From Deltaproteobacteria bacterium (lineage in GTDB: Bacteria; Myxococcota_C; UBA6777): a DNA stretch of 64,000 nucleotides. The notes under the pieces were generated by a model that worked only from the letters and a program-made list of their open reading frames with translations, made no database searches and was not told the DNA's origin. Where the stretch lies: assembly GCA_002731275.1 (NCBI GenBank), contig PCBK01000196.1, positions 1 to 64,000 on the forward strand. Reading direction: 5' to 3'. Shown one piece after another: positions 59,410 to 63,809 of this stretch. Numbering within the stretch: position 1 is the stretch's first letter; each line of letters starts with the position of its first letter. A program made the translations under genes and the position numbers.

Positions 59410-60873
59410 TCAGGAGTTCTCGTACAAGAAGAGCAGCGGATCGTGGGGGAGACTGCCGCGAGGCGAACGGAAGTACACAAATGGTGTGTAGTGGAGAAAA
59501 TTGGAGACACGAGACATATAGATGTCAGCGTAACGTTCGACTTGGATACTGAGGTGGCTCTTATCGTTGCCGGTCCGCATGAGGTAGCCCCAATGTGGAT
59601 TGAAACCTCGCCCATCACTGCTTGCGAGCGGCGCGATCTGGGCATCAAGCGCCAGGAGTTGTTCACGTAGCGCCTTGATCTTTTCATCGATCGCTTCGGG
59701 AGACTCTTCGCATTGGGGTCCATACCCCTCGCGCTTACGATGACTCGCAATACGCAGCGCGGAGAATTCGGCTTCGAGTTCTTCCTTTTGTTGCATCAGC
59801 TCAAAGACAGAACGTTGTTGGATGCACGTCCTATTGATCTCACACATCTCCTGTTCAAGTTCGCGGACGATGAGCGCCGTTCGCCACCGCAGCAAGCTCT
59901 TGGAGATATTGACATCTGCGAAGATGTGGTCCCCAACGTACAGGATCTCATCACCTGACATACCGAGATACTCTTCGATCGCGGAGGCGTTTCCACCTAC
60001 GTATATTTTGCTCTCATCGGAAGGTCCGAGACTACGCTGGAGATGACCTTGTTCGTTGAGCACCTCAAAAAAGGGTGAGCTTGTCGAGAAGAAGTCCGGC
60101 TTGCGGGCAGAGACGATGATCAAATCGAAGACATCCTGCCACTTCATTCCCTCGGGCAGATAGCGCTCAACAGCGTACTTCATCATGGGCTGTGTGTATT
60201 CCCACTCCGAGTTGGTGATCAGCATCAAGGTTTTGCCTGCGGCTTTTTGATCGAGCAAGGTCAACGCAAGCTCAGGATCGAGTTCGACAAAGCGCTCGGG
60301 ATGTGTGACGATCTCCCTCTTCAATTCGCCTTCGACGTGGGCGTGGTCAAGGGTCTCTCGGATGATATCAAAGAGGTCTTGATAGCCGATGCGTTCGGGA
60401 ATCTTTCCAGCATCGAGCAGCTCGATGAGTTGCATGTAGATGCAGGCTTCAGACAATGAGAAGAGTGTGTTCATAAAGTAGTAGCGAGGATCGCTCAGAT
60501 CGACGAGGATACGCGAATAGGTCTCACGCATCGCTTTGTATTCGAGGGGTTGGGTCCCGTGGTAAACGCGCTTGATGTAGCCAAAGCGGTTCGCCTTCAA
60601 CACGTTCCCAAGCTCTTTGTCGATGATGAGTCCTCGCGTCACAATGTCTTCGACAAACTCAAGGTCTTCGATGGGCCAACCTCTTTTGATCAGGCCTTGT
60701 TTGATGAATGAATAGGCTCTTCCTTCCCAGGCTTCGACATTATAATGGATGAGGGTGTAGTCCATGTCGTAGCCAATCGCTTTGATCGAGCGGAGATTCA
60801 GCGTGCGGTTGCAAAAGACACCGCGCTCAGCGGGGACAGATTTTGGAAGATGGAAAGGATTCGATCGTTGCAT
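59410..60873 (-). CDS. HAD-IG family 5'-nucleotidase
   Basis: A 487-residue member of the HAD superfamily IG 5'-nucleotidase group (cN-II-like), which dephosphorylates nucleoside monophosphates. Motif I is DMDYTLIHY near residue 36 with both Asp; motif II is the Thr/Ser in LITNSEW near 220; motif III is the Lys in ARKPDFF near 257; motif IV is YVGDHIFADV near 317. The ATG at 60873 has AAGGAG six bases upstream. It lies 31 bp downstream of the DCC-family selenoprotein gene and is probably co-transcribed with it. Confidence 0.92.
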   Translation of the reverse strand: MQRSNPFHLPKSVPAERGVFCNRTLNLRSIKAIGYDMDYTLIHYNVEAWEGRAYSFIKQGLIKRGWPIEDLEFVEDIVTRGLIIDKELGNVLKANRFGYIKRVYHGTQPLEYKAMRETYSRILVDLSDPRYYFMNTLFSLSEACIYMQLIELLDAGKIPERIGYQDLFDIIRETLDHAHVEGELKREIVTHPERFVELDPELALTLLDQKAAGKTLMLITNSEWEYTQPMMKYAVERYLPEGMKWQDVFDLIIVSARKPDFFSTSSPFFEVLNEQGHLQRSLGPSDESKIYVGGNASAIEEYLGMSGDEILYVGDHIFADVNISKSLLRWRTALIVRELEQEMCEINRTCIQQRSVFELMQQKEELEAEFSALRIASHRKREGYGPQCEESPEAIDEKIKALREQLLALDAQIAPLASSDGRGFNPHWGYLMRTGNDKSHLSIQVERYADIYMSRVSNFLHYTPFVYFRSPRGSLPHDPLLFLYENS

Positions 60874-60904: not shown

Positions 60905-61333
60905 TCAATGCTTCATGGGCATGTCGCGTTTTGTGTCGAAACGGCGAAAGATGTATTTGTACAATTTTCCGCGATAGCGGGCAATCAACCAATACAATCC
61001 CTCAACCAACCATACAAATGGAATCCACCCCGCCACAACAGGCAAGATCGGCACACCAATTGTACGCAAAATATAGAGGAGCGCACGTCCTGCGCGAAGC
61101 TGCTTTCCATCCGGAAAGAGCACATGTACAGCGCGTTGACAAGCAGCTCTCAGCTCATCATCCATCGGAGGACTTGGGACCTCCTGGTATGGAATGTGTT
61201 CAAAGTGTCCTTTGTCGTGTCGACTGACCCAGTCGACTGAAAAACGTCAGAACTTTCATCCGCCGTCCCACACCAACCAGGGTTTCTCCCGATCGAAGTG
61301 GGCACCAGGCTCCTCTCGTTCATTGACAGCCAC
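60905..61333 (-). CDS. DCC-family thiol-disulfide oxidoreductase-like selenoprotein with UxxU site
   Basis: A 142-residue DCC (DUF393) protein if two in-frame TGA codons (61256-61258 and 61247-61249) are read as selenocysteine. The family has the N-terminal motif DxxCxxC; here the frame reads WDGG-U26-KF-U29, so both TGAs sit exactly on the two Cys positions. Downstream SVDWVSRHDKGHFEHIPYQ, ACQRAVHVLFPDG, LRAGRA and WLVEGLYWLIARYRG are all family-typical. The start is GTG 61333, with GGAGG five bases upstream. The ATG at 61165 gives only an 86-residue piece without the active site. A SECIS-like hairpin follows the TGAs. TGA is a normal stop elsewhere here (for example at 6228) and ends this gene too, so global recoding is excluded. 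A pseudogene is the main alternative. Confidence 0.88.
61219..61237 (-). promoter_or_regulatory. Candidate bacterial SECIS hairpin
   Basis: On the minus strand GTCGACTG-GGT-CAGTCGAC forms a perfect 8-bp stem with a GGU loop. The loop begins 17 nt after the second TGA and 26 nt after the first. Both distances lie in the roughly 16-37 nt window given for bacterial SECIS elements, and a G stands in the first two loop positions. The lower stem is imperfect. One element may serve both TGAs. Confidence 0.75.
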
Positions 61334-61401
61334 GACAGCCTCCAAGCCAGAACACTAAAAAGGGTATAGACGCACAACCTGCGCATACGCGCAATACATC
61401 G

Positions 61402-61429
61402 ATCATAGAGTCGCTTTTACAAAAGTCAA
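61402..61429 (-). promoter_or_regulatory. Sigma-70-type promoter of the DCC selenoprotein gene
   Basis: On the minus strand TTGACT (61429-61424) is followed after 16 bases by TATGAT (61407-61402). Both hexamers are near consensus. The expected transcription start is about 60 bases upstream of the GTG at 61333. This is the clearest promoter in the window. Confidence 0.75.
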
Positions 61430-61480: not shown

Positions 61481-62386
61481 CTAGTGGTCCTCGACTTGGC
61501 CGAGTGCAGCAGGCGCTTGTGACCGACCAACCACACCAGCGAGGGCGAGGATCGTGAGCAGGTACGGCAACATATCGAGAAATTCAGAAGGAATGTGGAT
61601 CTGTGGCAACGATTGGACCTGAAAATTCAAGGCATATGCGAAACCAAACAACAGACAAGCGAACAACACAGGCCAGGGCTTCCAACCACCAAAAATCAAC
61701 GCCGCCAGCGCGATATAACCACGACCTGCGGTCATGTCTTTTGAAAAGTTACCAGCCTCATTCACCAGGATGGCGCCGGCAAAACCTGCGAGCAGACCGC
61801 TTAACAAGACCCCAATCGTCCGCATCTTCGAGACAGAGATACCGGCACTCGCGGCGGCTTGCGGATGTTCACCACAAGCCCGCAGACGCAAACCAAAAGG
61901 AGTACGGAACATTGCCCAAGAAGAAGCCACCAGGATCGCGATGGAGACGAGAAAAAAGGGCGAGATCTGGAAGGTACCGACAGAGAGCTTACCTGCCGTT
62001 TGCTTCAAAAGCCCTGACCCACCCTTTCCACCGAAGATAAGAAGGGACAAAAAGATCGTGCTCTGAGATGCCAGGATATTCAGCGCGACGCCAGAGATGA
62101 TCTGGTCTGCCTTCATACGAATACAGATCCATGCATGCAACCACGCGAGCAGCGCTCCAGCCAACCCCGCCCACAAAAATCCAACCCAAGGCACCCATCC
62201 GCCAGATTGGAAAAAATAACCCCACAACCCTGCCGCAAAGGCACCCGAGAGCATCATCCCTTCGAGGCCAATGTTGATGATCCCACTGCGTTCGGAGAAC
62301 ATACCACCCAAGGCAGCCAGCAACAGAGGAGCCGCCGCACCAAGCGCGACAACTGTTAATGTGACCAAAGAGAACCCTTCAAACAT
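61481..62386 (-). CDS. ABC transporter permease, YufQ/NupQ-like
   Basis: A 301-residue inner-membrane permease with eight to nine helices, of the BPD_transp_2 family. The N-terminal motif GGMFSERSGIINIGLEGMML is typical of the second permease of nucleoside or BMP-dependent ABC importers (YufQ/NupQ type). A cytoplasmic EAA-like loop with GLRLRACGEHPQAAASAGI is seen near 175-195. The ATG at 62386 has AGGAGA eight bases upstream and overlaps the end of the first permease gene by eight bases. A T7 run follows its stop codon. The ATPase and binding protein genes are not in this window. Confidence 0.88.
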   Translation of the reverse strand: MFEGFSLVTLTVVALGAAAPLLLAALGGMFSERSGIINIGLEGMMLSGAFAAGLWGYFFQSGGWVPWVGFLWAGLAGALLAWLHAWICIRMKADQIISGVALNILASQSTIFLSLLIFGGKGGSGLLKQTAGKLSVGTFQISPFFLVSIAILVASSWAMFRTPFGLRLRACGEHPQAAASAGISVSKMRTIGVLLSGLLAGFAGAILVNEAGNFSKDMTAGRGYIALAALIFGGWKPWPVLFACLLFGFAYALNFQVQSLPQIHIPSEFLDMLPYLLTILALAGVVGRSQAPAALGQVEDH

Positions 62387-63416
62387 GGCCAAATCTCCTC
62401 TCAGGGTCCAATAACCTCACAAATAACCGCGAAGACACCATCAAAATGATCAACGCTTCGAGGATCTGGATCAGCTCACGTGGAATCCCTAAACTCGTGT
62501 CCAACACACCTCCTCCAGTCTCAAGGATGCCAAATAAACAGGCCGAAAAAACAATCCCCACAGGATGGTTCCTCGCCAAGAGCGCCAACGCAATGCCCCA
62601 AAAGCCCCATCCCGGCGACAACCCCATCTCAAAGTGTGGATGTTGTGGTGAAATCACATGAAACCCACCAGCAAGACCAGCGATCGCACCTGACAACATA
62701 AACGTCCAGATCGTGATCTTGTGGGGATCAATCCCTGCGGTCTTCGCAGCATCAGGCTGAATGCCTGTCACTCTAATCTCAAACCCTATCCCTGTCCGGC
62801 GCAAGACATGCAAAAGCACAAAAGCCAGCACAATCCCCACGAGCAAACCAACATCCCACTGTAAACCAAAGATGTGAAGGCCACCCATTTGCGCATGATT
62901 CGAGACGTCTACGGTCCGCGGGACAGAGCGATTCACACGGATCGCAGGTTGACGCACAAGGAACGCACACAAAGAAAACATGATGTAGTTGAGCATGATG
63001 GTGTTGATGACTTCGTGTACACCAAATCTCACCTTCAAAAAGGCAGGTATCCATGCCCAAAGAGCCCCAGCTCCGACAGACACAAGTAAGACAATCCACG
63101 GCGCGAGGAATGGAATCTCCAACCAACGACCGAGCAACGCCCCAACCATCGCTCCTGCAAAGAGTTGCCCCTCCGCACCGATGTTAAACAAACCAGCCTG
63201 AAAGGCAATGGCGAGTGACAACCCACAAAGCAGGTACGGCGCTGTTGTCGCCAATGTCATATTGATCTGTTCAGCCGATCCTAACGCACCTTTCAGCAAC
63301 AATCCATACACAACAGCAGGTGACTCTCCCATATACAACAAGATCAAGCCACCCATCGTTAATGCCGAAAGAAACGCTAGCATCGCACAAAGGGACTCAA
63401 ACCACATGCGCTTCAT
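62379..63416 (-). CDS. ABC transporter permease, YufP/NupP-like
   Basis: A 345-residue inner-membrane permease, the first of the pair. Typical motifs are LAIAFQAGLFNIGAEGQLFAGA near 92-113, GVHEVINTIMLNYI near 150, and GFEIRVTGIQPDAAKTAGI near 220-240. The ATG at 63416 has TTGGAG 11 bases upstream; an ATG at 63407 is possible. Together with the next gene it forms the membrane pore of a nucleoside or related substrate importer. It is divergent from the ABM-domain gene across a 102-bp gap. Confidence 0.88.
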   Translation of the reverse strand: MKRMWFESLCAMLAFLSALTMGGLILLYMGESPAVVYGLLLKGALGSAEQINMTLATTAPYLLCGLSLAIAFQAGLFNIGAEGQLFAGAMVGALLGRWLEIPFLAPWIVLLVSVGAGALWAWIPAFLKVRFGVHEVINTIMLNYIMFSLCAFLVRQPAIRVNRSVPRTVDVSNHAQMGGLHIFGLQWDVGLLVGIVLAFVLLHVLRRTGIGFEIRVTGIQPDAAKTAGIDPHKITIWTFMLSGAIAGLAGGFHVISPQHPHFEMGLSPGWGFWGIALALLARNHPVGIVFSACLFGILETGGGVLDTSLGIPRELIQILEALIILMVSSRLFVRLLDPERRFGHV

Positions 63417-63518
63417 GCTGCTACACTCCAAAACAAAAAGAGCCCAAAAACGATTTCTTGACGATACACTGTAGCACAATTCATCCTCCTTATGAGGAAA
63501 CCAACAAAAGGAGTCCCT

Positions 63519-63809
63519 ATGAGCACAACTGTGATCATTCATATCTTCGCCAAAACCGGACAAAGAGACGCAGTCCTCGAACAACACCATCTGCTCATAC
63601 AGCGACACGGTGATGACCCCAAGCTACTTCGTATGGACTGCTATTTTCCAGAAGATGAACCCGAACAAATCGTAGAGATTGCAACGTGGGAGAGCAAAGA
63701 AGCGCACCAACAATGGCGGCAACGTGTCATCGACAGTGGTGACGCAGACGCCTACATCAGCCTCCTCGCCAAACCCAGCTCTCTGCTCTACCTATCACCC
63801 GCGAAGTGA
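63519..63809 (+). CDS. ABM-domain (antibiotic biosynthesis monooxygenase-like) protein
   Basis: A 96-residue single-domain protein with the dimeric alpha/beta barrel fold typical of ABM proteins: a first strand VIIHIFAKTGQRDAVLEQH, the CYFPEDEPEQIVEIATWESKEAHQQW core and a C-terminal helix. The ATG at 63519 has AAGGAG six bases upstream. Family members act as cofactor-free monooxygenases or quinone-handling enzymes, but many have no known activity. No partner is nearby. Confidence 0.82.
   Translation: MSTTVIIHIFAKTGQRDAVLEQHHLLIQRHGDDPKLLRMDCYFPEDEPEQIVEIATWESKEAHQQWRQRVIDSGDADAYISLLAKPSSLLYLSPAK

Follow-up and report, generated by a model that had tools for sequence, protein, structure and literature searches.

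The minus strand of the window, by which we mean the whole 64,000-nucleotide stretch of DNA analysed, carries a gene that very probably encodes a DCC-family thiol-disulfide oxidoreductase with selenocysteine (Sec) in place of both active-site cysteines, the two UGA codons being decoded as Sec by means of one hairpin. Translated with TGA as a residue, the frame from 61333 to 60905 reads VAVNEREEPGAHFDREKPWLVWDGG-U-KF-U-RFSVDWV...DMPMKH, a protein of 142 amino acids that ends at a TGA. The only interruptions in this frame are two TGAs (61258-61256 and 61249-61247). A preliminary description of the DNA had proposed an unannotated DCC-family frame, running from a GTG with GGAGG through two TGAs and missed by standard gene calling. 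Such a frame is indeed present, and standard ORF calling recovers just its C-terminal 86-residue piece (60905-61165). On the plus strand, the frame of 60905-61333 bears no relation to the DCC protein. The features of the gene and its surroundings are as follows:

61333 to 60905, minus strand: predicted coding sequence of a UxxU DCC-family selenoprotein, with 142 residues between a GTG start at 61333 and a TGA stop at 60907-60905
61256 to 61258, minus strand: first in-frame UGA, residue 26, predicted Sec, pairing with the first Cys of DxxCxxC
61247 to 61249, minus strand: second in-frame UGA, residue 29, predicted Sec, pairing with the second Cys of DxxCxxC
61219 to 61237, minus strand: SECIS-like hairpin GUCGACUG-GGU-CAGUCGAC, with an 8 bp stem and a GGU triloop
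61139 to 61141, minus strand: TGT codon of the third cysteine (residue 65), a position conserved without exception in the subfamily's Sec and Cys members and at which TGA never occurs
61339 to 61343, minus strand: Shine-Dalgarno-like GGAGG, separated from the GTG start by 5 nt
61402 to 61429, minus strand: tentative promoter-like site TTGACT-16-TATGAT upstream of the gene, a match to the consensus only
59410 to 60873, minus strand: 5'-nucleotidase family gene (PF05761), the next gene downstream, starting 31 nt past the stop of the selenoprotein gene

The 5'-nucleotidase gene is possibly co-transcribed with the selenoprotein gene, which does not imply a functional link. Two ABC-transporter permease genes (61481-63608 of the window, minus strand; PF02653 for one of them) lie upstream on the same strand.

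The protein belongs to the DCC1-like family (PF04134, formerly DUF393; YuxK in B. subtilis). With C placed at both TGAs, it matches PF04134 with E = 3.9e-10 and 41.4 bits, against a curated cut-off of 27.8. All seven members of set A4 match PF04134 as well. The position and spacing of the DxxCxxC motif are exact, and the sole departure from the family is that both motif cysteines are UGA codons (DGGUKFU). In the alignment of DCC family members, Cys is invariant at both TGA positions, which bears out the earlier placement of the two TGAs on the two cysteines that name the family. Downstream of the motif, an invariant P, Y, and R are common to the window protein and the family. Members of the DCC family are predicted thioredoxin-like oxidoreductases. 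The AlphaFold2 model, derived from two sequences, is of low confidence (pLDDT 53). A Foldseek search with this poor model gave weak matches, mostly to thioredoxin or glutaredoxin folds and none at E <= 0.001. A sequence search of the PDB found no DCC structure.

Two further genes carry the same pair of TGAs at matching positions. One is in G003 (SBHC01000081.1), a genome from another genus of the same family as the source genome (G000). Its product is 47% identical to the window protein, and its motif region reads DGDUAFURCS as compared with DGGUKFURFS in the window. The other is in G401, which belongs to another phylum (that of G032), and reads DGDUGFURRS. The G401 gene lies on a 3.4-kb contig whose tetranucleotide composition correlates with that of G401 with r = 0.95, versus 0.31 for G000 and 0.48 for G003. 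Pairwise identity among the three Sec forms is about 44-51%. Neither of the two additional frames contains an internal stop beyond the two TGAs. The argument in the preliminary description that two such TGAs would be a strange coincidence is thus strengthened, as both are kept in both relatives. We looked for degenerate frames with other stops in the relatives and saw none. No gene neighborhood is conserved across the three genomes: the neighbors are ABC permeases and the 5'-nucleotidase family gene in G000, a gene resembling homoserine dehydrogenase in G003, and genes resembling MarR-type regulators in G401 (the last two judged from translations alone).

To gauge the background rate of such frames, we searched for DCC proteins in 386 genomes drawn from across the bacteria and in 195 from the G032 phylum. 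Among the roughly 280 other DCC matches listed, none has a double internal TGA; a lone TGA occurs in one and a lone TAA in another. No Sec form was found in 18 genomes of a phylum rich in close Cys homologues. A search of viral contigs, plasmids, and phages found no relatives.

The machinery for Sec insertion is present in G000, whose assembly comprises 200 contigs totaling 10.75 Mb, with 94.7% completeness and 5.5% contamination. SelA (550.5 bits), SelB (above its cut-off at 379.7 bits), and a tRNA-Sec with a UCA anticodon (71.5 bits) were all detected, together with SelD, whose frame reads through one internal TGA. The check for this machinery suggested along with the original proposal therefore gives a positive answer for all four components. 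Within the small phylum around G000, SelB is present in five of five genomes, and tRNA-Sec, SelA, and a full SelD in four of five each. The occurrence of the Sec trait across the whole lineage argues against contamination. In G003, SelB and tRNA-Sec were detected, and searches for SelA and a full SelD found neither. Because this genome is 86% complete, we regard the missing genes as probably an assembly gap. For G401, the Sec machinery was examined only within about 250 kb. The selD genes of G002, G004, G000, and G001 (L076-L079) each contain one internal TGA, and SelD in these four genomes is apparently itself a selenoprotein.

Just downstream of the two UGAs, all three Sec genes can form a hairpin with a GGU triloop. 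In addition to that of the window gene, the hairpins are CGUCUG-GGU-CAGACG and GUAGCCUG-GGU-CAGGCUGC. The place of the hairpin and the triloop are identical in all three genes, 26 nt past the first UGA and 17 nt past the second. The stems have 8, 6, and 8 bp, and the minimum free energies over 40 nt are -11.9, -8.5, and -16.6. Across the three genes, the eight stem pair positions are 91.7% paired, with compensatory changes at pair 5 (A-U, U-A, or C-G) and pair 3 (C-G or A-U). When the 3' partners are slid by 1-3 columns, pairing falls to 8-38%. The covariation score was reached in 25 of 500 shuffles; with three sequences, the power of this analysis is limited and the shuffle controls are suggestive only. 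For the three genes, synonymous recoding yields such a GGU stem there with frequencies of about 1%, 2%, and 0.2%. The bacterial SECIS model places constraints on loop, stem, and spacing, with a UGA-to-loop range of 16-37 nt (PMC13188914), and the hairpin agrees with these constraints for both UGAs. This model is not very specific, so the weight is carried by the place of the hairpin, the identity of its loop, and the covariation.

The hairpin was compared with several controls. The SelD genes of the same phylum served as an internal positive control and have a hairpin with a G-rich loop 16 nt after the UGA in three genomes and 27 nt after it in G001. A same-place stem with a GGU triloop has 6-8 bp in the Sec genes and at most 5 bp (in L048) in the Cys genes listed, which are 14 of the 55 Cys sequences tested. 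An Rfam scan for a SECIS family returned nothing meaningful. Folding energy was also considered as evidence for a SECIS and was dropped. The z-scores of the three Sec genes are -1.4, 0.0, and -1.7; energy does not single out the hairpin, since GC-rich Cys homologues fold equally well. Two of the Cys homologues, L062 (in G295) and L048 (in G366), have hairpins near the SECIS place, GCCTG-TGTGCG-CAGGC and TATGGCGTG-GGTCG-CGCGCCATG, respectively, and one of the two is the sister of the Sec clade. They may be fossil SECIS elements left behind by reversion from Sec to Cys, or may have arisen by chance in GC-rich coding sequence.

The interpretation as a double-Sec enzyme is supported by the Sec machinery, the pairing of both codons with Cys, the conserved TGAs, and the conserved SECIS-like hairpin. 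Other readings of the two codons must be weighed against it. The gene could be a decaying pseudogene of a Cys-type DCC protein, in which chance nonsense changes struck two Cys codons and either the 86-residue fragment or nothing is made. The frame is broken by two TGAs, standard ORF calling stops at the fragment, and TGA is one base away from both TGC and TGT. However, the same two TGAs, unaccompanied by any other internal stop, recur in three genes that are about 44-51% identical and come from two phyla. Conservation of the frame extends to either side of the TGAs, the other Cys codons of the three genes stay TGC or TGT, and the hairpin has been preserved through compensatory changes. Decay of this kind is highly improbable, and we rejected both it and sequencing error because three separate assemblies share both TGAs with nothing else wrong.

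It would be more unusual still for UGA to be decoded as Cys or another residue, either by an unusual tRNA such as a tRNA-Cys with a UCA anticodon or through a local change of the code. Both sites do pair with Cys, and Cys tRNAs with UCA anticodons have been reported in some bacteria. Yet TGA is the ordinary stop of genes in the window (PilP, the 5'-nucleotidase gene, and the Sec-DCC gene itself), for which reason we reject a local code change. The genome also has canonical SelA, SelB, SelD, and tRNA-Sec, and a SECIS-like hairpin would be superfluous; we consider such decoding extremely improbable. A partial form of Sec decoding is also very unlikely, in which one UGA (probably the second) is efficiently read as Sec and the other acts as a stop or encodes another residue, so that the protein would contain a single Sec or be mostly truncated. 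The second UGA has the more usual spacing to the loop, 17 nt versus 26 nt for the first, and the 16 nt found for SelD in three genomes of the lineage point the same way. Against this, 26 nt is inside the published range (PMC13188914), SelD of G001 uses 27 nt, and a stop at the first UGA would leave the second unreached, yet both codons are kept in all three genes.

For the double-Sec protein, a working model can be outlined. SelB and Sec-tRNA(Sec) would read both UGAs as Sec, with both insertions directed by the one GGU-loop hairpin, which lies in SECIS range of both codons. We infer actual Sec insertion at both positions, and a single SECIS would serve two UGAs that are 9 nt apart. The most likely chemistry is a redox cycle in which the UxxU motif alternates between a diselenide and a reduced selenol/selenolate pair; the motif would sit where the first helix of a thioredoxin-like fold begins. 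The predicted redox role is that the protein would reduce or exchange disulfides or oxidized substrates. The invariant third cysteine (residue 65) may take part in the cycle.

The closest relatives of the Sec forms constitute a Cys subfamily (L047, L062, L048, L068, L100-L110) with 32-55% identity to them. The signature LWDGxCxFC...PYQxxPSPPM and the same extra Cys are common to the nearest Cys forms. These differ from the Sec forms in having a Cys-Cys active site, and no same-place GGU-triloop stem reaches 6 bp in those listed. A maximum-likelihood tree of 57 DCC proteins, whose bootstrap support is not fully settled, groups the three Sec forms as a single clade (92/72) within this Cys subfamily; as far as sampled, the replacement of the Cys pair by Sec therefore happened once. 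The Sec pair was then either retained across large evolutionary distances or transferred from one phylum to another, and the data fit either course. G000 also encodes an ordinary Cys-type DCC protein (DGECPLC; L017, G000:C5:43178-43507, minus strand), which is distant from the Sec form in the tree.

Our search of the open-access literature found no DCC/PF04134 selenoprotein, although one could have been reported elsewhere. Eukaryotic selenoprotein L, the subject of a 2007 PNAS paper cited in PMC2398784, is a thioredoxin-like protein with a UxxU diselenide redox motif. In principle it works in a comparable way, and it differs in belonging to another family and in using a eukaryotic SECIS. Several UxxU families and no DCC member appear among the 119 prokaryotic selenoprotein families of a 2026 inventory (PMC13188914), and the text of a 2025 deep-learning screen mentions no DCC member either (PMC12013277). 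The Prx-like thiol:disulfide oxidoreductases with UxxC/UxxU (PF00578) resemble the present protein as prokaryotic thiol-oxidoreductase selenoproteins with UxxU, and the bacterial FmdB-like and mercuric-reductase-like selenoproteins share the UxxU motif (PMC13188914). All of these are separate protein families, none of them PF04134. We therefore think it likely that the Sec-DCC proteins are a new diselenide-forming UxxU selenoprotein family, present in at least two phyla, with one short SECIS for both Sec residues. In this family, Sec would be either a single derived state within the Cys subfamily or an older state lost in some lines that retain fossil hairpins.

The Sec-DCC proteins would add a rare double-Sec family to the prokaryotic selenoproteome. 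There is a practical side to this, as gene callers cut such genes short and NCBIfam has no model that recognizes the protein. The genes also make it possible to test whether one bacterial SECIS serves two UGAs 9 nt apart. In the widespread and poorly understood DCC/DUF393 oxidoreductases, the entire active-site pair appears to have shifted from Cys to Sec, and because Cys and Sec forms both exist as close relatives, the comparison of diselenide with disulfide is directly testable in the same scaffold.
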